A stretch of DNA of 58,063 nucleotides from Fodinibius roseus (GTDB lineage: Bacteria > Bacteroidota > Rhodothermia > Balneolales > Balneolaceae). Below, piece by piece: positions 4,129-22,286 of this stretch. The stretch lies in contig NZ_FQUS01000027.1 in assembly GCF_900129315.1 (NCBI RefSeq), forward strand, positions 1 through 58,063. The letters are read 5' to 3'. Position 1 is the first letter of the stretch. Each line of letters begins with the position of its first letter. The notes below the pieces were generated by a model. That model did not search any database. It had not been told where the DNA came from and worked only from the letters and a program-made list of their open reading frames with translations. The position numbers and the translations under genes were made by a program.

Positions 4129-5919
4129 CTATTCAGGTATTCGTTTCAGAAATTCCTCGGCGTTAACAAATCCCACAATGCGGGCTCCCTCGATTTCATT
4201 TCCCTCATCGTCCAGGAAGATAATCGTCGGTACACCAGCCACACCGAATTTTTTGCGGAGTGCCTCGGACTCGGCCGACTCATAATCGGTGAGATCTACC
4301 TTGATCGTCCGGTACGGTTGCAATGCCGCGATAACTTCCGGATCGGTAAAGGTGATCCGGTCCAGTTCCAGGCAGGGCACGCACCAGTCGGCCGTAAAAT
4401 CCAGCACCACAGGGGTGTCTTTAGAAGCCGCGGCCTCCAGTTTGTCCGGGCTGTAGGTCTCCCAGTCCACCGTTGGCTTGGCTAGATTCATGATCACGAG
4501 CAATCCGCCGATCATACCGGCGATACCCACTACGCGCTTCACGCGCGAAAATATCTTTAAACTACGTCCCGAGGACTCCAAGAAACCAAGATAAATGCCG
4601 CCCAGGATCAATGTTGGAGGCAGGGTGTACAATACGTATTTAGGGAACCAGGCTAACGCCAGGAAAAATAGGGCAGCGCTGACCAACACCACGCCAAACA
4701 CCTTTTTCACCCATACCATCCACTGGCCGGATTTCGGCAGCTTGGAAAGCAGGTTGCTAAAGGTACCGAGGATGAGATACGGTAGTCCGAGTCCGACGGC
4801 CATAACAAAAAAGGTGAAGAAGCCGAACAGGGGGTCGCCCTGGGCTCCCACGAAGGTCAGCAGCGCAATGACCGGCGGACCGATACAGGGCGCGGCAAAA
4901 ATGCCCACCATGATGCCGGAAAGAAAAAGACCTGTGGGTCCGACAGCCTGTTGAGAACCACCAAGTTTTTGGAGCACCCACTGTGGTGGCTGTAGCTCGT
5001 ACAGCCCGAACATGCTCAACGCCATTGTCAACAGAATAATACCGACGGCACCCAACACTACCGAACTCTGCAGCCAGCTTCCAAACAGGCTGCCGGTATA
5101 GGCAGCGGCTACTCCGAGTACGCTGTACATACTTACGATGCCCAGCACATAGATCGAAGCCATTCCAAAAGACTGCAGGGTATTCGTTTGCTGATCAGCT
5201 CGTCCGCCAAACAGGGACACCGTAACCGAGAGCATGGGATACACGCACGGCGTAAGATTCAGCGCCAGCCCGATCAGGAAAATTCCCAGAAAGCCCAGAA
5301 TCGCACCCCGTTCGTCAAACATGGAAGCAATGGAATTATCTCTGAGTGAGACAGAGGATGAGCTTATAGATTCCCCGGCATTTGCAGAAAAGAGTTTCTG
5401 ATTGATCGATTTAAAGCCCGTATTGGCTGCTGCAATGTCAACCGGGATTGCAATGTCAATCGTGGACGGTGGCAGACAAGATTTGTCGTCGCAGGCTTGC
5501 ACGCGCAGGCTGCCGTTCAGCGAATAGGTGCCGGGCTCCAGTTCAGAAGAAGCTTTCAGTGTGACAAATACAGGGGCACTTCCATGGTACACATCCAGTG
5601 GTTCCCCGGCAAAAGCAAAGGTAAACCGTTCTGACTTCGGGTATTGAATTCCTGTAATCGTAAATTCAGGGTGGTCGTCAATCTCCAATTCCGTACCAAT
5701 CAGGTAATCGAGGGTGGGCTCGTGAGCATTGACGTGCCATCCCTCCTCGATATTCATTACCACTGCAGCAGCAACTGTGTCTCCAGCCGGAACCACATTT
5801 TGAGAAAGCCTGATCTCTGTGGCCACTTTTCCGGCGCTACCCGTAGGTTGAGCAGAGAGTAATCCTTCAAAACCAAATAGAAGGATTGCCAGTAAAAAGA
5901 TAACTCGTTGAACTTTCAT
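4129..5919 (-). CDS. dsbD: DsbD thiol:disulfide interchange protein
   Basis: An inner-membrane reductant shuttle that moves electrons from cytoplasmic thioredoxin to periplasmic thiol proteins. Three parts are visible: a signal peptide and N-terminal DsbD-alpha-type immunoglobulin-like domain (about 25-150), a CcdA-like membrane core with the paired cysteines in TPCVYPML and APCIGPPV (about 200-480), and a C-terminal thioredoxin domain with CVPC at 513-516. At 596 residues it is near the E. coli length. Its neighbours TlpA and CcmF suggest it reduces apocytochrome c haem-binding cysteines or copper-site cysteines. It starts 30 bp after the TlpA stop, within one operon. Confidence 0.93.
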   Translation of the reverse strand: MKVQRVIFLLAILLFGFEGLLSAQPTGSAGKVATEIRLSQNVVPAGDTVAAAVVMNIEEGWHVNAHEPTLDYLIGTELEIDDHPEFTITGIQYPKSERFTFAFAGEPLDVYHGSAPVFVTLKASSELEPGTYSLNGSLRVQACDDKSCLPPSTIDIAIPVDIAAANTGFKSINQKLFSANAGESISSSSVSLRDNSIASMFDERGAILGFLGIFLIGLALNLTPCVYPMLSVTVSLFGGRADQQTNTLQSFGMASIYVLGIVSMYSVLGVAAAYTGSLFGSWLQSSVVLGAVGIILLTMALSMFGLYELQPPQWVLQKLGGSQQAVGPTGLFLSGIMVGIFAAPCIGPPVIALLTFVGAQGDPLFGFFTFFVMAVGLGLPYLILGTFSNLLSKLPKSGQWMVWVKKVFGVVLVSAALFFLALAWFPKYVLYTLPPTLILGGIYLGFLESSGRSLKIFSRVKRVVGIAGMIGGLLVIMNLAKPTVDWETYSPDKLEAAASKDTPVVLDFTADWCVPCLELDRITFTDPEVIAALQPYRTIKVDLTDYESAESEALRKKFGVAGVPTIIFLDDEGNEIEGARIVGFVNAEEFLKRIPE

Positions 5920-5949
5920 AGGTGGCTAAAATAATTCTTGGATTTACAA

Positions 5950-6525
5950 TTAGCTGTCTTCCGCCAGCAGTTCTTTAATACGCGGTTCTAATTCTTTGTT
6001 GGTTAGCGCTCCGACCGCAAAATAGCGCAGGTTCCCTTGCCGGCCGATAATATAGGTGGTCGGGATGCCCATAGTAGGGCCATATTTTTCCATCACAGTT
6101 CCATCAGTGTCGATGTACATCGGATACGTTACGTCATATTCTTCTATAAACGGACGTACCACCGATTCGCCCTGCTCGTCGATGGAAACCCCGAGAGTGA
6201 CGTAACCCTCGTCTTTATATTTTTCATACAGATCAACGAGGTCGGGGGTTTCTTCTCGGCAGGGCGGACACCATGTGGCCCAGATATTTATCAAGACGAC
6301 CTTCCCTTTTTGATCGGAAAGCCGGAATGGTTCGCCGCTCAGGAGCGACACTTCGAAATCGGTGGCCGGTGCCTCGTTTTGAGCGGCGTGCAACGGAGCG
6401 GAAGTAGGATCAAGCTGCTCGATGCGTTCACTTTTACTGTTTTGCATCTGCTGCGGCGATTCACTTTGTTCCGCTCCACAAGCGGTCAGAAAGACAAATA
6501 AACCTGATAATAGTACGTACTTCAT
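5950..6525 (-). CDS. TlpA/ResA-like thioredoxin lipoprotein
   Basis: A 191-residue membrane-anchored thiol reductase. It has a lipobox ending in Cys16 (FLTAC), a low-complexity linker to about residue 50 and a thioredoxin fold with the active site WCPPC at 85-89. The cis-Pro loop appears as GIPTTYII. TlpA, ResA and CcmG proteins reduce CXXCH sites of apocytochromes c or copper-chaperone cysteines. Placement between dsbD and the cupredoxin, in the same operon as ccmF, supports either role and suggests it is a direct DsbD client. Confidence 0.9.
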   Translation of the reverse strand: MKYVLLSGLFVFLTACGAEQSESPQQMQNSKSERIEQLDPTSAPLHAAQNEAPATDFEVSLLSGEPFRLSDQKGKVVLINIWATWCPPCREETPDLVDLYEKYKDEGYVTLGVSIDEQGESVVRPFIEEYDVTYPMYIDTDGTVMEKYGPTMGIPTTYIIGRQGNLRYFAVGALTNKELEPRIKELLAEDS

Positions 6526-6538
6526 AATTTCATTTTGT

Positions 6539-7270
6539 TTATGATTGAACGATTAATTTTCCCCGCATTCCGGCGGCAAAATGAGCCATAAACGAGCACA
6601 CGTAATCATATTGGCCGGGCTCTTCCGGGACGGAAAACGTAATTTCTACCGTTTTACCATCGGCAGCCAGACCGGTGTTCGCAATAATGGCATTTTCTCT
6701 GCCGGGAGGGATGTAGTCGTTTTTGCGGTTGGCGGCGTTGACAAAAGCCTGAGCATTGACATCTTGATCCAACAGTACCCAATTATGAGCCATCATCTCG
6801 GGTTTGTGCTGACTGAGCGTTCTCAGGCGAATCCTGAGCTGCTCTCCAGGTTCGGCCGTTATTTGATTTAGCAACAGATAGGACTTGCCGTTGAAAGCTT
6901 CGGTGGACCTGCCTGTACTGATACGCTCACCTTCCTCTTTGACTGTAAACTTCATTTGATCAGTACCGATGATCTCAATAGTTCGGATATTATCATCGAT
7001 ATTTTGTTTTTGTTCCTGGTTCCATTCATCCTTTGGGATAATTTGCCCGGTCGGGGTAATCATTTCTCCGGGCGCCGGTTCTTCCATCGGGAATTTGTTG
7101 ATGCCGACACCAGCATCTCGGTTTTCCGGCACATAGTGATTATGCGAACCGTGGTTTACCGCCGTGTAGGGCTTCGGATTAAAAAAGCCCAGTGAATCCG
7201 CCAGAGCGAAACCGGCGGCAATAAGTACTCCCAGAATAAACAGGTATTTAAGTTTGTTTTTGGATGTCAT
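6539..7270 (-). CDS. Azurin-like cupredoxin, membrane-anchored
   Basis: An exported blue-copper electron carrier or copper-binding protein. An N-terminal hydrophobic segment (9-27) anchors or exports it. A His-rich linker follows, and the cupredoxin domain occupies about 95-243. The type 1 copper ligands are visible as His162 (MAHNWV), Cys225, His230 and Met235. The order and the spacing of the C-terminal Cys, His and Met ligands match azurin. It lies between the DUF411 protein and TlpA. A likely job is to shuttle electrons or copper to the oxidase or to a cytochrome. It is longer than azurin because of the N-terminal extension. Confidence 0.88.
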   Translation of the reverse strand: MTSKNKLKYLFILGVLIAAGFALADSLGFFNPKPYTAVNHGSHNHYVPENRDAGVGINKFPMEEPAPGEMITPTGQIIPKDEWNQEQKQNIDDNIRTIEIIGTDQMKFTVKEEGERISTGRSTEAFNGKSYLLLNQITAEPGEQLRIRLRTLSQHKPEMMAHNWVLLDQDVNAQAFVNAANRKNDYIPPGRENAIIANTGLAADGKTVEITFSVPEEPGQYDYVCSFMAHFAAGMRGKLIVQS

Positions 7271-7316
7271 AGCAAACGTTGGATTAGGTGGAATTGAATT
7301 TTTTCCTCGTCATTTA

Positions 7317-7808
7317 TCAGAACCTGTCAAAATAGGCCACTTGTTCTGGTCCGTTGAAAAAATACACGTCCACCGGGCTGGGATCTTCCGCCATTCCCGG
7401 CGATTCGGCCGGCATGCCAGGTACGGCGATTCCTTTGGCACCGGGCCGTTCCTTCAGCAGCTTGCTGATCGCTTCCACCGGTACATGGCCCTCCACGATG
7501 TAGCCATCGACAACTGCGGTGTGGCAAGAACTGAGCTTGTCTGGAACGCCTTTTTGCTTCTTAACGGAAGCAAGTGTATCCGTCGGCTGTTCTGTTACCG
7601 AAAATCCATTTTCCTTCATATAAGTGGCCCATTTGGAGCAACACTTACAGTTCGGATTTTTGTACATGGTTACATTGACCGGTTCGGATTGAGCAAGGAT
7701 TACATAATCGGTATTGGTTTTATGTTGTTTTTCCTGAGAGCAGCCAGTAATGCCGATAATCAGGACGAGAACTGTCAGGAAATATGATCGTGTAATTTTG
7801 TATTTCAT
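7317..7808 (-). CDS. DUF411 putative copper-binding lipoprotein
   Basis: A 163-residue DUF411 protein with a lipobox (GITGC) near residue 23. The family core is clear: MYKNPNCKCCSKW, then SCHTAVVDGYIVEGHVP, then AVPGMPAESPGM. The CxCC group and downstream Cys, His and Met residues could bind copper. DUF411 genes are commonly found in copper and silver resistance operons; the biochemical role is not settled. It starts 18 bp after ccmF ends and is followed by the cupredoxin, so it is part of the same operon. Confidence 0.88.
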   Translation of the reverse strand: MKYKITRSYFLTVLVLIIGITGCSQEKQHKTNTDYVILAQSEPVNVTMYKNPNCKCCSKWATYMKENGFSVTEQPTDTLASVKKQKGVPDKLSSCHTAVVDGYIVEGHVPVEAISKLLKERPGAKGIAVPGMPAESPGMAEDPSPVDVYFFNGPEQVAYFDRF

Positions 7809-7826
7809 ATTTTAAAGGATATTTAA

Positions 7827-10355
7827 TTAAAGTTGTGTTGACTTTTTCCGTTCGCGGTCCCAGTGTCGATGGATGGATACGCTGAAACCGGCCATCAGCA
7901 CGAAGGTGCCCAGCCATACTAAGGAGACAAAAGGTTTCTCCTCTGCCGTAAGCAGGATCCACTCTTCCTTTGGTTTTTCGCTGATACCTTTGACGGTCAG
8001 TTCAATTTTGCCGGATTCGGGAAACACGCGGGTAAATTGGACCTCAATATCCTGTTCGGAAAAAATAGCTGGTGGGGAATAGACCCAGTTTTTGCCTTCA
8101 TCCGAATAAAGCGCGAATAAGGGTTTGATACGGTATGGGGTTTGGTTGGCATCATATTTTATGTCCACCAGTGCCCGAACAGCGATGGAGGTACTGTCGG
8201 GAAGCTTGGATTGATCCACTTGACCATATTTCCGGAAAGTGAACCTGTAATTGCCCATGCAAACGGAATCTCCTTTTGCGAAGGTAATTTTCTGTGTTGG
8301 CACTGAGTCCTGTTGCGCTCTTTGTACCTTTACTGATTGAGAGGCCGGCTGGATTGTATTTCTATTTTGTTTTTTCTTTCTGTTCCGATAATGTTCATTC
8401 TTACGTTCCACATAGGAGCTGCCAGCAACATAGAGATAGATGTCGCTGAAAAATCCAGCCATAACATCCACATCTACAGACCAATTAATTGTGGTGTCTG
8501 CCCTGCCCATTGGATACACCTGGGGAGACAGGAAAAAGGTGTCATCGATTCCAGATTTATTCAGCTCTTCAAATTTGATCTTATATTCCTGCTGGCCGGG
8601 TCGCTCCTGATTGCGTAGAGTGTATCCTTTGTACGTAACCTTGTATTTATTATTCACTATCTTGGGTTCATTGAGATTCAGTTCCAAAAAGTCGACTGGT
8701 TGCGTAACGAGATTTCCTTTTTCGTCGGTCACCTTGCCTTGTTTAATCGCTTCATTGTATTGCCTTACAGAAGGATCCAATAAATTGCCTTCATAGGCCG
8801 AGGAAGCCAGAAAACCCAGCAGCATGATGCCGAAACCGATATGGCTGAGCGTTCCGCCAATGAGCTTGGGCTTTTTACGGGCCAAGCGGAACATGATGGA
8901 TGCATTTCCAAACAAAGCAAACCAGGCGGAAAGCAGGTACAGCATATAATACAGATCGCGCACGTCTCCTATAAAGATGGTAGCCAGCGTAGCGATGCAC
9001 GCTCCGGCAACAGGCCAGAGCAGTTCATTGGCCAGCGATTCGGCGTTGTGGCGTTTCCAGAATAGGTATTGTCCCAGTACGGTCAACATAGCGGCAAGGA
9101 TGGCCAGCGGCATGGTCCACTCGTTATAGAAGCTAATTTCAGGCGGCGTCGGGTTCTCCACAAACAGGCGTCCGATGATCGGGGAGCTGGTGCCGAGAGC
9201 CATTACCATCCCAATCAGGAACAGTACCATAGCCCCGGCAAAGGTCATAAATTCCCGGCTGAGGAATTTGGACTCATTCTGCTGGGAGGGAAGGTCCTTG
9301 TAGCGGTAGATCAGCATGCCTATGCCGACGCCCAGAATGGCTGCCATAAACAGCAACAGCTGATTATATAATCCCAGATCCACAAAACTGTGGACGGAGG
9401 AATCGGAAAGTACGCCCGAGCGGGTCAAAAAAGTCTCATAGACCACGGCTACGTATGCCAGCATGGCCAGAATAATGGAAGCTTTCTGTGAGGTGGAACT
9501 TTTGCGCTGAATGAGCATGGTATGGATGCCAGCGGTCCCGATCAGCCAGGGGATGAAGGAGGCATTTTCGACCGGATCCCACGCCCAGTAGCCGCCGAAG
9601 GAGAGGGTAACATACGCCCAGTAACCGCCCAGAAAAATAGCGGTAAACAGCGACAGGTTGGCCCCGAGCGTCCACGGTAGGGCCGCATTGACCCATGCGT
9701 GGTATTTGCGTTTCCAGAGGGCCGCCATGGCAAAGCAGTAAGGCACGGCCATCATGGAGAAGCCCAAAAAAAGTGCTGGCGGGTGGATAATCATCCACGG
9801 GCTTTTCAGCAGGTCATTTAAACCTTTGCCATCAGAGGGAACAAAGTCGGGATTGGACTGGATAAACGGGGCATTGGGCATGGCCTCGGCCAGCGAGCGG
9901 AAGGGCGAAGCTCCGATTTTGAAGGTTCCCAAGTCAACCCCCAGAATCATCGATAGCAGAAACAGCTGATTCAGGGTCAAAAAGAACAGCACCGGGCCGC
10001 GGTAGGGCTCGCGTACCCACCTCATCAGGCCCAATCCCATCAAGGCGGAGAACAAAATCCACAGCATAAAACTGCCTTCCTGTCCACCCCAAAAGGCGGA
10101 GATCAGGTATTTAAACTGTAGGCTGCTGCTGGTATAGTTGTAGACGTAATAGTAATTGAACTGGTGCGTCAGAATAAGGTAGAGCAGTATACCGGAAGCA
10201 GCAAGAATCAACAGGCCTTTGAGGCCAAAGAGCCAGTTTGAGATGGTCAGATATCGATTGTTCTCTTTTTGGGAATACAGGAAGTATCCGATCAGAGACA
10301 AAAAACCTACCAGAAAAGCGGAATTAATTAGTATGTTACCGATTGTGCCAAGCAT
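7827..10355 (-). CDS. ccmF: CcmF-type cytochrome c haem lyase subunit
   Basis: A large polytopic inner-membrane protein that attaches haem to apocytochrome c in maturation system I. The haem-handling WWD-type motif reads GGYWAWDPVENAS, and conserved histidines (WMIIHPPALF and others) are in place. About 14 membrane segments are visible, then a long periplasmic domain (about 530-800) and a final membrane helix. At 842 residues it is longer than E. coli CcmF, as in other Bacteroidota. It heads the operon ccmF, DUF411, cupredoxin, tlpA, dsbD. No ccmA, B, C, E or H is present, so this may be an extra copy used with the metal genes. Confidence 0.92.
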   Translation of the reverse strand: MLGTIGNILINSAFLVGFLSLIGYFLYSQKENNRYLTISNWLFGLKGLLILAASGILLYLILTHQFNYYYVYNYTSSSLQFKYLISAFWGGQEGSFMLWILFSALMGLGLMRWVREPYRGPVLFFLTLNQLFLLSMILGVDLGTFKIGASPFRSLAEAMPNAPFIQSNPDFVPSDGKGLNDLLKSPWMIIHPPALFLGFSMMAVPYCFAMAALWKRKYHAWVNAALPWTLGANLSLFTAIFLGGYWAYVTLSFGGYWAWDPVENASFIPWLIGTAGIHTMLIQRKSSTSQKASIILAMLAYVAVVYETFLTRSGVLSDSSVHSFVDLGLYNQLLLFMAAILGVGIGMLIYRYKDLPSQQNESKFLSREFMTFAGAMVLFLIGMVMALGTSSPIIGRLFVENPTPPEISFYNEWTMPLAILAAMLTVLGQYLFWKRHNAESLANELLWPVAGACIATLATIFIGDVRDLYYMLYLLSAWFALFGNASIMFRLARKKPKLIGGTLSHIGFGIMLLGFLASSAYEGNLLDPSVRQYNEAIKQGKVTDEKGNLVTQPVDFLELNLNEPKIVNNKYKVTYKGYTLRNQERPGQQEYKIKFEELNKSGIDDTFFLSPQVYPMGRADTTINWSVDVDVMAGFFSDIYLYVAGSSYVERKNEHYRNRKKKQNRNTIQPASQSVKVQRAQQDSVPTQKITFAKGDSVCMGNYRFTFRKYGQVDQSKLPDSTSIAVRALVDIKYDANQTPYRIKPLFALYSDEGKNWVYSPPAIFSEQDIEVQFTRVFPESGKIELTVKGISEKPKEEWILLTAEEKPFVSLVWLGTFVLMAGFSVSIHRHWDRERKKSTQL

Positions 10356-16688: not shown

Positions 16689-16780
16689 TGGTCTTTTGTG
16701 GTCATATAGTTATAAGTTGCAAGGGCGATAAAGGCCATTGGCACCGCGTAAACAGATAGGCTAGTAGCTTTGGAGGTCAA
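16685..16780 (-). CDS. Possible 31-aa membrane peptide (TTG start)
   Basis: A short frame beginning at a TTG inside the end of the upstream gene. It encodes one hydrophobic helix (VYAVPMAFIALATY) with a polar end. Its TGA stop overlaps the ATG of the next gene (ATGA). The overlap at both ends and the membrane helix fit the style of the cassette. No Shine-Dalgarno sequence is visible, so it may not be translated. Confidence 0.3.
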   Translation of the reverse strand: MTSKATSLSVYAVPMAFIALATYNYMTTKDQ

Positions 16781-17036
16781 TACGAAAGCCGATCACAATA
16801 TCTTCGTCAATGCCAGTGTGGAGAGAGTAGAGCCCCGGTTCCAGTTTGAATATGGCTTTTACCACATTAAAAGGCTGTCGGAAATTAAAGGGGAGCTCCT
16901 TTTCTACTTGCTGGAGCCCGTCGGTGGTACCAGTGATGCGGCCAAAGATGGGTAGCCCCTGCTCCAGCTCTTGCAGGCAGGTGGCGTAATCCCGCTCTTG
17001 GGTTTTGTTTGGTTTATTTTCCAGCGTTTCAGGCAT
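16761..17036 (-). CDS. Small hypothetical protein, first gene of phage-like cassette
   Basis: Not recognised. The 91-residue soluble protein has no membrane helix or signal. A polar N-terminus leads into a compact alternating pattern (PFNFRQPFNVVKAIFKLEPGLYSLHTGIDEDIVIGFRI) likely to form a beta-rich fold. It appears to be the first gene of the run that continues to 14211. The roughly 190 bp upstream (17037-17224) hold no gene and probably its promoter. A small virion protein is a guess from context. Confidence 0.5.
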   Translation of the reverse strand: MPETLENKPNKTQERDYATCLQELEQGLPIFGRITGTTDGLQQVEKELPFNFRQPFNVVKAIFKLEPGLYSLHTGIDEDIVIGFRIDLQSY

Positions 17037-17224: not shown

Positions 17225-17647
17225 CTATTTCATGAGGTTTGAAATCCAACTTTTAAACTTATTCCATAAGCTTTGGTCCTCAGATTCTGACTCTTTAGAA
17301 CTTGTTTTTGAAGAGTTGAAGTAACGTTTTTTATTTATCTGTTGTTTTGCTCTATTTGCCTGAATCTTTTCTTTAGACCATTTATCTGCCCATCTGATCT
17401 CATCATTAATAATCCAGTAATGAGATTGGCATGGATAGCTCCAATTGCCAATTGATGGGTTTAGGGATATAGATTCTCCGTTATATTTTAATTCCCAATC
17501 TGTTGGTGAAAGTGGAGTAACAGTTTTATTGCCACAACCACAAGCACATTTATGAACTGCTGTACCAAATCTTATTGAGATATAAAGAACTCCTTCTTCA
17601 AGATTTTTTGGTATGTATTCTACAAATCTATGATTCAGTTTCTTCAT
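17225..17647 (-). CDS. DUF6527 protein of ubiquitin-like module
   Basis: A 140-residue protein with the DUF6527 signature: HKCACGCGNKTVTPLSPTDW, then SIGNWSYPCQSHYWI. The cysteines and histidine probably bind zinc. DUF6527 genes are commonly found next to ThiF/E1 and multi-ubiquitin-domain genes, as here. The C-terminal about 40 residues are a Lys/Ser-rich linker and a Trp-containing amphipathic end. The start overlaps the E1 stop by 20 bp, so translation is probably coupled. The biochemical role (target adaptor, E3-like or protease) is not known to me. Confidence 0.83.
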   Translation of the reverse strand: MKKLNHRFVEYIPKNLEEGVLYISIRFGTAVHKCACGCGNKTVTPLSPTDWELKYNGESISLNPSIGNWSYPCQSHYWIINDEIRWADKWSKEKIQANRAKQQINKKRYFNSSKTSSKESESEDQSLWNKFKSWISNLMK

Positions 17648-18815
17648 TCAACATTTTGTTTGAATTAATCCGATAAAAACTAGTATGCTCATTATTTCGG
17701 TCATGGTAAAAACCAAACAGCTTTTTCCATTTTATAACAGCAAGGGTCGCATTGAGTGAATTTAGCTCAGCTATTTGAATGTTAGAATCATAATCATTAT
17801 CCGGATCTTTGGTAAAAGGAATATAATTTTTATCCCAGATATGATCTGTTTTTGAAGGCGTTCCTGTTGTTGTCCTTACTAAACCAGTAAGTGCACCCTG
17901 ATTATTATTTACACCAATCCCGACATCAATAAATGGGATACCTTCTTTTTCTAAAAACTTGATTATATCCTTTTTAATGTCACCTGAATCTAGAGATAGG
18001 AAGACAAAATCAAACTTATCTAACGTCGTAACGGTTTCTGATTTTAGGTATTCAGGATGAGCCTTAATCCCTTTGTGCATCTTGGAGTATATGTTCTGAA
18101 GATATACTACTTTTTTCTTGGGTACAGTGAGATCATCTATTGAGGGTGCGCCCGGAGCTCGGAACGCATTATTATTGTAAAACCAGTCTCCATCATAGAT
18201 ATGAATTTGTTCAACTGGCACCTTGGCAACCAAATCTAAAATATATGACCCAGTGCCACCCAGACCAATGATTGCAATTTTTTGTTCTTTGAGCTCATTT
18301 TCTAAAGTACTCAATTCAGGCTTACTTGAGTTAGTATTTAAATAGTTAAATACATATTCATCTTTGCTTTGGGTTATCTGCGCCTTTCCTTTTTCAGTTA
18401 CTGAGTTGTCTTTTGCTTTGGCTGGCGCTGTTATCATAGTGATATAGGTGTTCATCTTATGATGGTAATCTGAATACCCATTGGGTTTGGGCTTGCTAGA
18501 AAATCTAAAGTTTACCTCAAAGCCATCGGCAATTTGTTGAGTATTGCTATTATTTAGGATCGAATTAAATTTGGTGCCATCTAACCTGCATGGCATTTCT
18601 CCAGACCAATAAACAGTATGTTCAGGGTTCTTTCTCGTTTTATTACCTGACAACTGTAGTTTGGAAACGAATGTCCCATATTTAATTTCACTATTAGAGT
18701 TTAAATATGGGATTCTGTGAATCAGCAGGAAGTTATTTTTGATTTCTACAACTAACCCACTCTCTACTAACTTTTTGAGATCCTCATTATGATCTATCAG
18801 TTGCGCTGACATCAA
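17628..18815 (-). CDS. ThiF/E1-like enzyme of ubiquitin-like module
   Basis: An adenylating enzyme expected to activate the C-terminus of the ubiquitin-like protein encoded just upstream. The adenylation domain spans about 178-380: GLGGTG nucleotide loop at 184-189, acidic DGD at 208-210, Arg219 in NNAFRAPGA, a Lys cluster at 233-235 and LSLDSGD. The first about 150 residues are a separate domain seen in such E1-like proteins, possibly E2-like. The whole protein has one cysteine, Cys76, in that N-terminal domain; the adenylation domain has none. Start at 18815 or 18812 overlaps the ubiquitin-like stop by up to 29 bp. Base composition is more AT-rich than the flanks. Confidence 0.86.
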   Translation of the reverse strand: MMSAQLIDHNEDLKKLVESGLVVEIKNNFLLIHRIPYLNSNSEIKYGTFVSKLQLSGNKTRKNPEHTVYWSGEMPCRLDGTKFNSILNNSNTQQIADGFEVNFRFSSKPKPNGYSDYHHKMNTYITMITAPAKAKDNSVTEKGKAQITQSKDEYVFNYLNTNSSKPELSTLENELKEQKIAIIGLGGTGSYILDLVAKVPVEQIHIYDGDWFYNNNAFRAPGAPSIDDLTVPKKKVVYLQNIYSKMHKGIKAHPEYLKSETVTTLDKFDFVFLSLDSGDIKKDIIKFLEKEGIPFIDVGIGVNNNQGALTGLVRTTTGTPSKTDHIWDKNYIPFTKDPDNDYDSNIQIAELNSLNATLAVIKWKKLFGFYHDRNNEHTSFYRINSNKMLNEETES

Positions 18816-19071
18816 ACTCTGTACCTTCTTTTATCTTTATGGTTTGTCCTTCAGCTAATGTCCCTTCTTTATTTCCCCGGGCTTCTGAGTATACTACTTG
18901 GTACTCAGTGTATTCTCCGTATGGAGGATTTTCGAAAGCTAACTTGGTAACTTCACTAAATGATATCTCTTTGCCGGTCCAAGTTTCAGGGGTTGCATTT
19001 ACATATATTGTAAACTCCTTATTTTGGCCTGGAGCATCTTCCTTACCTTTTCCTTTATCTGAGTTATTCAT
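18787..19071 (-). CDS. Ubiquitin-like protein (multi-ubiquitin-domain family)
   Basis: A 94-residue protein with a Lys/Gly-rich disordered N-terminus (1-20) and one beta-grasp domain (about 20-94). The pattern (FTIYVNATPETW, FSEVTKLAF, YQVVYSEA, EGTLAEGQTIKIKEGTEFDV) fits the bacterial multi-ubiquitin/ubiquitin-like family, here as a single unit. It ends in SATDRS and not Gly-Gly. It overlaps the E1-like gene and follows the DUF2188 gene after 35 bp. It is the presumed modifier; its target is unknown. Confidence 0.83.
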   Translation of the reverse strand: MNNSDKGKGKEDAPGQNKEFTIYVNATPETWTGKEISFSEVTKLAFENPPYGEYTEYQVVYSEARGNKEGTLAEGQTIKIKEGTEFDVSATDRS

Positions 19072-19106: not shown

Positions 19107-19355
19107 TTAATGTTCCTTATCTCTCGGTGGGAAAGGATCATTGCCCGGAGAGATGGTGTCTTTGCTTCGAATCTTACCATCTGTTCCCATTATTTTTAGT
19201 TCACCACCACCTTGGTTTTTTAAATTCTGCTTGGCCGCTTTGGCAGCATCCTTTTGTCTATTGTGAACAGAGGATGCTTTAGATGCAGAATCCTTTTTAT
19301 TTACCCATTTTCCATCGCTTCTTCGATAAACTGATCTATCCTTATCTTTGTTCAT
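19107..19355 (-). CDS. DUF2188 family protein
   Basis: An 82-residue, very basic protein of the DUF2188 type. The family landmarks are visible: the VYRRSDGKWVNKKDSASKASS start, the KDAAKAAKQNLKNQGG helix, MGTDGKIRSKDTI, and the closing GNDPFPPRD. DUF2188 proteins are small and widespread, and often lie in defence or mobile regions; their function is unknown. It is the first gene of the minus-strand ubiquitin-like operon and shares its upstream region with the divergent sigma-like gene. Confidence 0.85.
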   Translation of the reverse strand: MNKDKDRSVYRRSDGKWVNKKDSASKASSVHNRQKDAAKAAKQNLKNQGGGELKIMGTDGKIRSKDTISPGNDPFPPRDKEH

Positions 19356-19396
19356 AATTGTATGATTTTTTGTGTTTTTGGTTGCCTTCTATTATA

Positions 19397-19459
19397 TATA
19401 GCTGAAAAGTTGACCGGATTTTCCATCCCGTGGAAAATTGTTATGAGAAACCAGCTATA
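19397..19459. promoter_or_regulatory. Two concentric inverted repeats between divergent operons
   Basis: Outer arms TATAGCTG (19397-19404) and CAGCTATA (19452-19459) and inner arms ATTTTCC (19418-19424) and GGAAAAT (19432-19438) are each perfect and share one centre at 19428. Thirteen unpaired bases lie on each side between outer and inner arms. The structure fills the gap between the DUF2188 start and the sigma-like start, so it is a likely shared operator or an RNA hairpin in the plus-strand leader. Confidence 0.6.
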
Positions 19460-19479
19460 GTTTATGTAGAGATACTACT

Positions 19480-20052
19480 ATGAGTTCAAGAGCTTTTGAA
19501 TATATTGATGGTTTAACTGATGATGAACTTGATGATCTGTATAAAAATTTAATCAGTTTTGCTGACTTCAGACTTAATTTTATTACTACACAAGGAATGA
19601 GTGCCAAAGATTTTGTTGGTAGGGCAATACGAAAGGTATTAGATGAGAACAGTGATGATCATAGATCTTGGGATCCTGATACAAACCCGAGTTTCACGAA
19701 TTTTCTAAAAGGTTGTATTTCCAGTGAAATTAGCAATCACTTTAATTTAAAAAGTACCTCATCAACTTATCATGCCAGTAATGAGCAATCTGCTGATAGC
19801 TTTTTCGATTTGTTGGAAAGTGATGTAAGCGTACTTGAAGAGGTTCACGGAAAAGATTTAAGGGACCAATTGTTTGATCATCTTGTAGAAATAGATGAAG
19901 AACTTGCAGAATTGCTTTTTTTCGAAGAAGAAGGTTATTCAGCAGATGAAATAGCGGGTAAATTAAACTATGACTCACGACAAAAGGTATATAATGCTAA
20001 AAAAAGGCTTCGAAGAGCTTGTGAAAAGTTTATTGATAATTTGAAAAACTGA
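19480..20052 (+). CDS. Sigma-70-like transcription factor
   Basis: A 190-residue protein resembling a divergent sigma factor. A region-2-like part (about 25-95, with FVGRAIRKVL and FTNFLKGCISSEISNHF) leads through an acidic linker to a region-4-like helix-turn-helix at about 140-190 (GYSADEIAGKLNYDSRQKVYNAKKRLRR). It is first in a three-gene operon with a charged small protein and an ImmA-type protease. It may direct transcription of its own operon or the divergent ubiquitin-like module. The family call rests on pattern. Confidence 0.7.
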   Translation: MSSRAFEYIDGLTDDELDDLYKNLISFADFRLNFITTQGMSAKDFVGRAIRKVLDENSDDHRSWDPDTNPSFTNFLKGCISSEISNHFNLKSTSSTYHASNEQSADSFFDLLESDVSVLEEVHGKDLRDQLFDHLVEIDEELAELLFFEEEGYSADEIAGKLNYDSRQKVYNAKKRLRRACEKFIDNLKN

Positions 20053-20065
20053 TGGTAGAACTAAT

Positions 20066-20452
20066 ATGAAGAAATTAGCCGAAATACTATCTTGGTTAGG
20101 TGAGTTTGAAGATAAAATGGCAAGAGATGAATACCTGAAAAGTAAGGGTTATGATTTGGATAAACTTGAAGAGGAAGGAGTAAATACTTTCAAAAAAGCT
20201 TTAGCTGAAAATAAACTTAAAAAAGCACAAGAAAAGAAAAGTCTCCTAAAAAGAGCCCAAGAACTGCTTAAATCACAAAGCCAGGCTATTTCTCTAAAGT
20301 CCATACTTTCAAATATGGAGTCGCCTGAGTCTAAGTTTGCCTTTCAATTCTCCAAATTAGATGATATAAGCGATGAAGATGCTTTAAAAATGTTCAATGA
20401 TGAACAGCTTTTACAACTTATTGAAAAGCTAGAAAAAGAAGATGAGCAATAG
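20066..20452 (+). CDS. Small charged helical protein, possible sigma antagonist
   Basis: Not recognised. The 128 residues are rich in Lys, Glu and Leu and almost entirely helical, with a likely coiled coil at about 45-85 and an acidic end. It lies 13 bp after the sigma-like gene and overlaps the ImmA-type gene by 11 bp. Three-gene sets of regulator, small helical protein and ImmA protease suggest that the protease cleaves one of the other two. An anti-sigma role is inferred from this layout only. Confidence 0.6.
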   Translation: MKKLAEILSWLGEFEDKMARDEYLKSKGYDLDKLEEEGVNTFKKALAENKLKKAQEKKSLLKRAQELLKSQSQAISLKSILSNMESPESKFAFQFSKLDDISDEDALKMFNDEQLLQLIEKLEKEDEQ

Positions 20453-21227
20453 GGCTGCAAGAGTCGCTAATCAAATAAGAAAAGAATTTTTTATCCATGG
20501 AAGGATAGATCTAGGAGAAATAGAAGACCTTTGTGCAGTTAGAAATGCCTTTGTCAAATATGAACAGATAGATGGGGCGCAAGGAAGAATTCTATTTTCG
20601 GGAGCGTCTGATAAATCTATGATTACCGTTGATGATTGTATTGACTATCTACCTAAGGAAAAGTTCGTATTAGCACACGAATTCGGTCACCATTTGTTAC
20701 ATAAACAACTAATGAACTTCGTTTGTCAAGAGTATGATTTCAACAAATGGAATAAAAACTCAAGTCGAACAGATTATCGGGAATACGAGGCGAATAACTT
20801 TGCAGCAGAGTTATTGATGCCTAAATACTTGGTGCGAGATATAACAAGTGGCAAAGGATTAAGTGTCAGTCTCATGGAAGACCTTTCTGATGAGCTGGGT
20901 TCTAGTATTACATCAGCATACATTCAATACACAAAATATGGGGATATCCCTTGCTATGTAGTTTTTTCTGAGAATGGTTTAATTGAATGGGTGACTAAAA
21001 CAGATGATTTCTACCTTGGTTTTTTAGATGAAGAAGATTTGCCAATTAATTCGACACCAAAAGTTTTTTTTGATAATGGAAAAAAGAAAAAGAAGGAGGT
21101 CTGTGATGCCATTGATTGGTTTCCTAAACTAGGAGATGAAGGTTTGTTGCTTAATGAAGAGTCAATTTATTTAGATAGTTATTCTTCTGTGATTACGCTA
21201 TTGTGGATTTGCGAAGATTATGGTTGA
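20442..21227 (+). CDS. ImmA/IrrE-family metallo-endopeptidase
   Basis: A cytoplasmic zinc protease of the ImmA/IrrE (DUF955) family. The zinc motif HEFGH is at 79-83, and the third ligand is the Glu in YEANNFAAELLMP (about 111-123). Family members cleave a repressor in response to DNA damage or mobile-element signals. A C-terminal about 100-residue extension (about 155-261) of unknown function follows. The gene overlaps its upstream neighbour by 11 bp. The likely substrate is the neighbouring small protein or the sigma-like factor. Confidence 0.88.
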   Translation: MSNRAARVANQIRKEFFIHGRIDLGEIEDLCAVRNAFVKYEQIDGAQGRILFSGASDKSMITVDDCIDYLPKEKFVLAHEFGHHLLHKQLMNFVCQEYDFNKWNKNSSRTDYREYEANNFAAELLMPKYLVRDITSGKGLSVSLMEDLSDELGSSITSAYIQYTKYGDIPCYVVFSENGLIEWVTKTDDFYLGFLDEEDLPINSTPKVFFDNGKKKKKEVCDAIDWFPKLGDEGLLLNEESIYLDSYSSVITLLWICEDYG

Positions 21228-21329: not shown

Positions 21330-22286
21330 TTACAGCCGATCAGAGACCCTTTTAATATCCTTAAACACGGCATCATCTTCCGGAAGCTTGCCAATAACCA
21401 ATTCTTTAAAAGTGCCGTTATAAACAGATCTGATCTTATTCCAGGTCTCTTCGGGTTTGTAAAAAAGCAGGGCTGAGGCAGGATGCTCGTATAGCCAATC
21501 GTACTGGTCGCCATAACTTTCGATATCATCGGCTCCAACTTGAAGCAGCATCTCATCCAGCTTATCGCTTTCAAAGAATTCTTGAATTGCAGGTTGCTTT
21601 AACAGCTTGTGAATATCGTAGGTATGGCGGACTTTATTACCGAGATCCTCATACGGGTTTTCGGCATGTGAAAACCGGACCAACGACATTATTTTTTCGC
21701 AAAAGGTCCGTTCTATAGTTAGTACTTTTAAGGGGAAGGGAGCTAATCCATATTTTTCAACAAGCTCTTCCTGACCTCTTGCTTTCATGATGTCGGCTAT
21801 AAACGAGTGAACCGCTACTTCTTCATGAGGTTCGAAATGTCCCAGCCTCGATATTTCTACAATGATTTTGTCGCGGACTTGGCCATAGGTTTGGTCATAT
21901 CCATGTTTCGCATACTCGTAGGCTACTTTTCTATTCTTCCCACGTTTCATGGTAATCCCGGGTAATTCTATTTCCTCCAAATCAGTATCATTAACTACTT
22001 TGCTAACATTCCTGACTCTTTTATCCATTTGGTTGTTGGATAGGTCGGGATCTTCTAACACCACAAGATCTATATCCTCCGAAAACCGGTTGATCGCCTG
22101 GTAACATTTGGAAAGCGATGTGCCGCCCTTAAATACGGCAACGTCTTTCATGTCTGAATGAAAGATCGCATGAAGGGCATAGGTTACCCAGTAGTCTTTC
22201 TCGATATAGATTTCCCGAATATTCTTATGATCGGCTGTAGCCCTTATGGCATCCCTAAAAATTTCGGCATCTTCGTGTAGATTCAT
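21330..22286 (-). CDS. AbiEii-type nucleotidyltransferase toxin
   Basis: The toxin half of an AbiE pair, a nucleotidyltransferase that limits growth, in known cases to abort phage infection. The fold's active-site pattern is visible: FKGGTSLSK (about 53-61) with DIDLVVLE (about 70-78). A conserved RTFCEKIMSLVRFS lies at about 190. At 318 residues it is of typical length. It begins one base after the upstream antitoxin gene stops. It lies convergent to the ImmA gene. Known AbiEii toxins modify tRNA ends; this has not been shown here. Confidence 0.88.
   Translation of the reverse strand: MNLHEDAEIFRDAIRATADHKNIREIYIEKDYWVTYALHAIFHSDMKDVAVFKGGTSLSKCYQAINRFSEDIDLVVLEDPDLSNNQMDKRVRNVSKVVNDTDLEEIELPGITMKRGKNRKVAYEYAKHGYDQTYGQVRDKIIVEISRLGHFEPHEEVAVHSFIADIMKARGQEELVEKYGLAPFPLKVLTIERTFCEKIMSLVRFSHAENPYEDLGNKVRHTYDIHKLLKQPAIQEFFESDKLDEMLLQVGADDIESYGDQYDWLYEHPASALLFYKPEETWNKIRSVYNGTFKELVIGKLPEDDAVFKDIKRVSDRL

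Follow-up and report, generated by a model that had tools for sequence, protein, structure and literature searches.

How toxic immune operons are silenced and later activated is still an open question, and it is raised by a locus of Fodinibius roseus in which three genes stand back to back with a ubiquitin-like operon. We analysed this locus within contig NZ_FQUS01000027.1 (the whole stretch of 58,063 nucleotides is called the window here). The three genes, at positions 19480-21227, encode a sigma factor, a 128-residue helical protein (p128) and a zinc protease of the CapP family, and the divergent operon encodes DUF2188, Multi_ubiq, DUF6791-ThiF and DUF6527 proteins. We conclude that the trio is very probably a sigma-based controller of the divergent operon. 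For the way in which it would control this immune operon, we consider it probable that p128 acts as an anti-sigma factor, that CapP releases the sigma factor from p128, and that the freed sigma factor acts at two promoters.

The first gene encodes a sigma factor with regions 2 and 4 in order. Residues 35-183 of the protein match TIGR02937 (E 1.6e-5), below the curated cut-off (24.6 vs 42.9 bits), and a profile of eight relatives matches sigma-H (3mzy; E 5.1e-6, over 45-190) and FliA (1rp3; E 0.0064). The AlphaFold2 model (mean predicted confidence, pLDDT, 85.6) consists of two confident helical domains, one sigma-2-like and one sigma-4-like, with a low-confidence linker between them (residues 97-122). 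Foldseek with this model gave E values all above 0.1, with sigma chains by title in the nine best rows and not in the tenth; in a second structure comparison (VIA) the 50 rows shown were sigma chains as far as their titles tell, at Z scores that helical models easily reach. Region 4 superposes at about 2 Å over 60-72 residues (3mzy: Z 9.5, root-mean-square deviation (rmsd) 2.2, 72 residues), and the whole-length matches exceed an rmsd of 11, since their domains are arranged differently (6dv9: Z 9.9, 149 residues, rmsd 22.7). Tblastn found no match to the window sigma factor in phages, and one partial match in plasmids to the related sigma factor of locus L019 (L and G numbers denote loci in our collection).

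The third gene encodes a CapP-family protease. The protein matches Pfam M78 (E 1.9e-11) and PADLOC capP (E 1.2e-52), the latter spanning residues 3-256 of 261; this full-length match ruled out a generic ImmA antitoxin. The CapP profile also matches PDB entry 7t5t, titled 'CapP' (E 2.1e-27), which we take to be the Thauera protein. An HExGH motif and a downstream Glu are invariant in all seven aligned CapP sequences, including that of the window, where HEFGH is presumably the zinc-binding and catalytic motif and Glu114 the third ligand.

The original prediction, made from the DNA sequence, had called these two proteins sigma-like and an ImmA protease, and both names are borne out by the matches above. 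It had also placed the trio across 124 bp from the ubiquitin-like operon, which is correct (19356-19479), and had described three overlapping genes, which holds for p128 and CapP (11 bp) and not for sigma and p128, whose genes are separated by 13 bp. Trio order is kept in a congener at 94/96/89% identity (sigma/p128/protease) and in another genus at 38/43/50%. Since both order and sequence are conserved in this way, the three genes are not chance open reading frames (ORFs). Matches to Multi_ubiq (E 1.4e-14) and ThiF (E 2.2e-13) in Pfam indicate that a ubiquitin-like protein and an E1 are present in the divergent operon; none of its four proteins matches the Prok-E2 families of Pfam.

We then asked how widely the trio recurs. 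Matches to the sigma factor were found in 12 of 395 genomes searched in the phylum, and the order sigma, small protein, CapP was seen in eight of these, including that of the window; the protease ORF of L015 has only 141 residues, and the trio genes of L023 are spaced apart. The close family is present in 3/12 genomes of the window's genus, so the trio is accessory. A CapP profile search of a genome collection covering 84,980 species identified 101 relatives, and the best 80, which were kept, come by their record titles from Bacteroidota groups, Chloroflexi/Anaerolineae, Deltaproteobacteria, Patescibacteria, Williamsia, Bacillota and others. A sigma profile match lies upstream of CapP in 70 of these best 80; this share cannot be carried over to CapP proteins at large, because the scan used two CapP patterns drawn from sigma-linked CapPs and so favours that subfamily. 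Two of the loci are others met again (L065 and L066 are L053 and L019), and L081, L090 and L097 are likely near-duplicates of L079, L085 and L079, respectively. A p128 profile match stands between sigma and CapP in 64/70, and a p128-like frame was visible by eye in five of the other six. The genes are tightly spaced, with frequent 4-base overlaps: the sigma-p128 gap is within -20..+25 in 57/64 and the p128-CapP gap within -40..+25 in 60/64. A possible p128-CapP fusion in L080 was rejected, as the N-terminal extension of the ORF resembles frame noise. Among the ten CapP relatives without sigma, six (L139-L144) have an HTH_3 gene (helix-turn-helix, HTH) directly upstream of CapP, which is the CapH+CapP layout, three (L068, L115, L131) lie near a contig start, and L124 is without sigma. 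Eight plasmid records match the window CapP: six carry the trio by profile, and the other two, Thauera K11 and Polaromonas JS666, carry HTH+CapP beside a cyclic-oligonucleotide-based antiphage signaling system (CBASS). On the trio plasmid of Pontibacter actiniarum (L191:3906-7588), umuD and a Y-family polymerase gene follow the trio, a DNA-damage context.

A divergent gene lies within 500 bp in 57/70 sigma-CapP loci, at a median distance of 134 bp. We tallied 134 divergent proteins from 51 loci, leaving out L065, L066, L090 and L097 (L081 was kept), genes encoding fewer than 85 residues and genes beyond the fourth. Within the first 25 of 52 Pfam families these comprised ThiF 16, Multi_ubiq 11, Prok-E2_E 10, SMODS 10, DncV-like 9, DUF6527 5, DUF1508 5, SAVED 4, TniB 3 and TnsA-like 3; within the first 25 of 171 PADLOC families, E1-E2 models matched up to 15 proteins and cyclase models up to 14. 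By locus, using an iterated profile, an E1 is present in 16/51, a CBASS cyclase in 10/51 (one of the ten, L081, resembling a near-duplicate) and both in none. The trio of L022 faces a complete CBASS set (SMODS, HORMA, AAA, SAVED) and that of L019 a Multi_ubiq-E2 protein with E1-JAB, and in L017 an E2-E1-JAB protein lies behind a 386-residue gene without Pfam match, a layout that we take to be 6A-MBL-like. DUF1508 genes, a family to which we take yegP to belong, are also found beside the trio. On a Sagittula plasmid (L194:2788-5226) the trio stands opposite three small genes including one for a DUF2188 protein, as in the window, and no ubiquitin-like genes are among those annotated there. An apparent Tn7-like set stands opposite the trio in L075, L085 and L096 (divergent genes ~4450-8900), with three each of TnsA-like, Mu transposase C and TniB proteins in the tally; the assignment rests on gene sizes for L075 and L085, and in L096 a 619-residue protein was checked singly. 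With such partners, a damage-responsive sigma factor could control transposition.

The bipartite sequence TGGAAAAT-N13-CAGCTATA is present on both strands of the 124-bp gap, pointing outward. Exact copies number two in the 5.08-Mb genome, both in the gap; none has one mismatch and six have two. In a congener with a 57% identical sigma factor, the two sites retain 31 of their 32 block letters, with changed spacers. GGAAA-like and AGCATA-like blocks about 15-17 apart presumably suit a promoter of the extracytoplasmic function (ECF) type. A sigma-70 consensus scan at the locus found three sites, against 6.2 expected from shuffles.

The same kind of site was recovered across loci. Bipartite expectation-maximization (EM) on 75 sigma upstream regions (L065, L066, L081, L090 and L097 excluded) gave, from random starts, aaATGCTg-N14-TTTgCca, a reverse-strand form with log-likelihood 190.4, and from another start atgGnAAA-N14-cAGCATat (149.3); the TGGNAAA/CAGCAT site was thus found de novo in both orientations. 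For a two-fold test, two more regions were dropped (N or near-identical sequence), which left 73 loci, and an order-2 background was adopted after one half had converged on A/T runs in a first run. Models were trained on the reverse strand of one half only and applied to the other half, with 1046 control scores from 523 upstream regions of other genes in the loci and two models. Scores above the control 99th percentile were obtained at 23/73 loci in the forward direction, 27/73 in the reverse and 20/73 in both. The two sites within a locus are more alike than sites across loci (0/2000 permutations as high), and this was also the case when register freedom was allowed (6.38 vs 5.10 in the -10 region, 0/2000). 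L180 carries a variant site, ATGACCAAA...CGGTTAT, in both directions. Of the seven trio loci not used to build the motif, L191 passes, although it has the same sites as L138, which was used.

The site goes with the sigma factor rather than with CapP. Four of eight sigma loci of other layout carry it (L018 16.1, L054 16.4, L060 14.1, L061 13.7 and 12.4), and of these L061 was in the motif set and L018, L054 and L060 were not. At 13 HTH+ImmA loci without sigma nothing scored above 10.5, save one site in L176 with one of the two models (11.2). In L018 (5751-10136), the same sigma family heads an operon for a p128N-SNF2 helicase and an HATPase (MORC/HSP90-like) protein, with a strong site upstream of sigma.

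The small middle protein passes no family cut-off in Pfam, PADLOC or NCBIfam; its best E value against PDB sequences is 0.16, Tblastn of the window p128 against plasmids gave no match, and no membrane segment is apparent by eye. An alignment of 63 family members defines an N-terminal module, L..eGhD.d...G...IKK (approximately residues 1-56), and a C-terminal motif, FRN.E.LS..D...L. The two parts differ in their neighbors. This sigma factor is encoded upstream of 95/96 ORFs with the N-module, the exception (L068) being near a contig start, and CapP is encoded downstream of 87/87 ORFs with the C-motif; these counts include overlapping loci more than once and come from loci collected through sigma, CapP or E1. 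Four proteins encoded right after sigma also match the p128 family profile. They are an SNF2 helicase in L018, an Eco57I-type methylase in L054, a 245-residue protein opposite a cyclase in L061 and, in L179, the product of the gene immediately behind sigma, in which the N-module is fused to an M78 domain. All four have the N-module and lack the C-motif; two HTH proteins (L057, L060) match weakly. The simplest reading of this sequence pattern is that the N-module holds the sigma factor and the C-motif meets CapP. In the p128 model, confidence is high at the N-terminus and low over the C-terminal half, which is compatible with a flexible cleavage segment.

Together, these observations suggest the following mechanism. 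In the resting cell, the N-terminal module of p128 would bind the sigma factor and keep it from RNA polymerase. CapP would respond to danger, the likeliest signal being single-stranded DNA produced by phage attack or DNA damage, and, once active, would cleave p128 or strip it off by way of the C-terminal motif. The freed sigma factor would then direct polymerase to the back-to-back TGGAAAAT-N13-CAGCTATA promoters, one serving its own operon, in positive feedback, and the other the DUF2188/Multi_ubiq/E1/DUF6527 operon. That p128 is an anti-sigma factor destroyed by CapP has, in our judgement, a somewhat better than even chance, and single-stranded DNA as the trigger is a tentative suggestion; both derive from the parallels with CapH+CapP (PMC13373217) and Calp (PMC12751052), two sources cited here and below from part of their text.

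Several observations weigh against this reading. The sigma factor misses the curated cut-offs of both Pfam (10.9 vs 25.7 bits) and NCBIfam (24.6 vs 42.9 bits). For p128, no similarity to a known anti-sigma family was seen, and the C-terminal half of its model has low confidence. For the site, A/T-run solutions came nearly as high in unseeded EM (188.5 vs 190.4), at 43/73 loci neither direction yields a site above the 99th percentile, and held-out forward scores are modestly above controls (p = 2.8e-4; reverse, 4.9e-14). Under the general motif the window sites reach 7.0 and 6.6, less than the 7.9 that marks the 90th percentile of the controls; the cause is their -10-like block, which is CAGCTA in place of CAGCAT. 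Comparison of the two strands over the whole window gap was not significant (17 vs a shuffle mean of 16.9), such self-comparison beat all 20 shuffles in 12/49 regions, and the 12/12 match of the window's two 6-base blocks was also reached in shuffles. The site is absent from four of the eight sigma loci of other layout (L057, L179, L182, L187), of which L182 and L187 have a different sigma. Among the trio loci not used for the motif, L190 attains the threshold of 10.5 barely and in a single direction, L180 and L192-L195 do not pass, and neither of the alphaproteobacterial loci L192 and L193 has a clear site. The loci were collected through CapP, sigma or E1, so adjacency counts are biased, and the binding, cleavage and transcription steps are predicted by comparison.

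Three other explanations were weighed. The published CapH+CapP protease cleaves a DNA-binding repressor encoded next to it (PMC13373217, in part), the Thauera K11 plasmid has an HTH gene and then an ImmA/IrrE gene divergent from CBASS, and an inverted repeat made up of the inner halves of the two window sites is a possible operator; a sigma-like protein that is itself a CapP-cleaved repressor equivalent to CapH, with p128 as chaperone or adaptor, would account for these features. We consider this unlikely, as the protein has two sigma-type domains, the sites are bipartite, near-constant in spacing and directed outward, and a third gene lies between in 69/70 loci (5 by eye) that is not present in the HTH+CapP loci of Thauera and Polaromonas JS666. 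Slightly less likely still is that CapP, or a CapP-p128 complex, inhibits the sigma factor and that the signal alters this complex without proteolysis. The p128N-M78 fusion after sigma in L179 would suit this, with the protease domain as a sensor tether, whereas the invariance of HExGH and the third-ligand residue in seven CapPs argues for catalysis. A third view, in which trio and ubiquitin-like operon are independent modules that happen to share a defence island, would agree with the many different partners of the trio and with E1 operons lacking it, but is improbable given a divergent gene within 500 bp in 57/70 loci, sites passing in both directions in 20/73 and co-variation of the two sites within loci.

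We also asked what controls E1 operons elsewhere. DUF6791-type E1 relatives were found in 14/395 genomes of the phylum, at 16 loci. The trio adjoins them at three (the window, G364 and L180). Other sigma sets are a sigma gene with the p128N-M78 fusion (L179), an ECF-type sigma with a 203-residue protein (L182), and an analogous trio of a different 225-residue sigma, an unrelated 117-residue protein and a 278-residue CapP (L187:3631-5450), with a divergent Multi_ubiq gene and an E1 split in two ORFs. HTH and ImmA genes lie beside E1 at four loci (L175, L176, L181, L188), and in L186 an M78 gene lies behind a 113-residue gene that is HTH-like by eye, without Pfam match. No controller was found near E1 in L177, L178 and L183, and L184 and L185 are at a contig edge. 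Because E1 relatives adjoin the trio, other sigma sets, HTH+ImmA or none, the controllers of the E1 operon look interchangeable, and the trio, which occupies the place of HTH+ImmA regulators elsewhere, looks like a plug-in controller. In the part of PMC13373217 cited here, CapW or CapH+CapP accompanies 219/544 Bub operons, and CapK+CapS accompanies 59.

The original prediction had proposed a protease-controlled switch that turns on the divergent module. The switch fits the conserved trio, its orientation, the two-strand site tied to sigma and the presence of CapP, although the pairing is not exclusive. The two operons are not normally found each alone in unrelated places, yet each has other partners: CBASS, E2-E1-JAB, Tn7-like and other operons for the trio, and for the E1 operon often HTH+ImmA or no controller seen.

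Table 1. Features of the window at the sigma-p128-CapP locus and the divergent operon.
Feature	Position	Strand	Basis or remark
Sigma factor gene, 190 aa	19480..20052	+	ORF list, profile matches, AlphaFold2 model
p128 gene, 128-aa helical protein, proposed soluble anti-sigma	20066..20452	+	ORF list, profiles
p128 C-terminal conserved motif, ~residues 95-125	20348..20440	+	proposed protease docking/cleavage segment, predicted function
CapP-family ImmA/IrrE (M78) zinc protease, 261 aa	20442..21227	+	Pfam, PADLOC, PDB match
HEFGH, presumed zinc/catalytic motif, residues 79-83 of CapP	20676..20690	+	7-sequence alignment
Glu114 of CapP, presumed third ligand	20781-20783	+	7-sequence alignment
Promoter-like site TGGAAAAT-N13-CAGCTATA facing sigma operon	19431..19459	+	ends 20 nt before ATG
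Promoter-like site TGGAAAAT-N13-CAGCTATA facing DUF2188/ubiquitin-like operon	19397..19425	-	ends 41 nt before ATG
DUF2188 protein (PADLOC PDC-S16), first gene of divergent operon	19107..19355	-	Pfam/PADLOC
Multi_ubiq ubiquitin-like protein	18787..19071	-	Pfam
E1-like DUF6791-ThiF protein	17628..18815	-	Pfam/NCBIfam
DUF6527 protein	17225..17647	-	Pfam

On its other side the trio is flanked by an AbiEii/AbiEi-type pair (Pfam/PADLOC), of which the AbiEii homolog is whole in the window (21330-22286) and split in two ORFs in the congener (L014:7762-8364). A 91-residue ORF at 16761-17036 resembles a shortened copy of a 331-residue gene in the sister genome (L014:12665-13660). In another congener (L015:9152-10914) the divergent sites remain, a DUF2188-like frame is readable by eye and the protease ORF is cut to 141 residues; no E1 relative was found in this genome, and the locus is perhaps a decaying copy.

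Sigma-E/RseA and SigW/RsiW are ECF sigma/anti-sigma pairs controlled by proteolysis, and such pairs typically have the sigma gene followed by that of the inhibitor in one operon, autoregulation and a GGAA-like -35 element. The trio shares with them a sigma gene followed by that of a proposed inhibitor and, as predicted here, autoregulation and a GGAA-like -35 element, and differs in that p128 has no apparent membrane segment and the protease is encoded third in the operon. The described controllers of Bub and CBASS operons, CapW, CapH+CapP and CapK+CapS, act through repressors, and in CapH+CapP the protease is activated by single-stranded DNA, a sign of damage, and cleaves its partner (PMC13373217, in part). 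As in CapH+CapP, a CapP-family protease is encoded divergent from CBASS or Bub operons, and the trio sits where the HTH+ImmA pair of Thauera K11 adjoins CBASS. However, a sigma factor and a 128-residue protein replace the HTH repressor CapH here, and activation would come from released sigma factor, not derepression. CapH does not precede CapP here: p128 lacks an HTH match, and upstream of it lies the sigma gene. In Calp (CalpL-CalpT-CalpS, type III CRISPR), a protease cleaves an anti-sigma factor and frees a sigma factor (PMC12751052, in part). The proposed logic of protease, anti-sigma and sigma in an antiviral setting is the same, but the Calp protease is a cA4-activated Lon-SAVED protein and that of the trio an ImmA/IrrE (M78) zinc protease; no Calp-named PDB chain was matched by p128 (E up to 1) or the sigma factor (E up to 0.01). 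CapK+CapS and CapW are likewise plug-in controllers of Bub, CBASS and other operons, and yegP is listed among the genes adjoining CapK+CapS (PMC13373217, in part). These systems use a kinase with a STAS repressor or a WYL repressor, without sigma or protease, whereas no GHKL kinase or STAS-HTH repressor was found by Pfam among ten proteins scanned around the trio. The trio would work like a cross of CapH+CapP and Calp, yet is a member of neither, because the CapH HTH repressor and the Calp Lon-SAVED protease are absent.

In the part of PMC13373217 cited here no sigma factor is named with CapP, ECF sigma factors are mentioned in other conflict loci in the cited part of PMC8195603, and the word 'sigma' does not occur in PMC7159879. 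No description of a sigma-p128-CapP module was found in titles and abstracts from literature searches, which left the original CapH+CapP, Bub and Burroughs-Aravind papers uncovered. The module is easily overlooked, because sigma and its partner are both annotated 'hypothetical protein' in all six trio plasmids. It may be, at somewhat less than even odds in our view, that the p128 N-module represents a new family of soluble anti-sigma domains, linking an 'immune sigma' family to interchangeable sensors (CapP, SNF2, Eco57I-type, M78 fusion, HTH+M78) and driving CBASS, ubiquitin-like and Tn7-like operons of several phyla from locus-specific divergent promoter pairs. A sigma-based switch, if true, would activate such operons by positive feedback, and it predicts the exact positions of the promoters.

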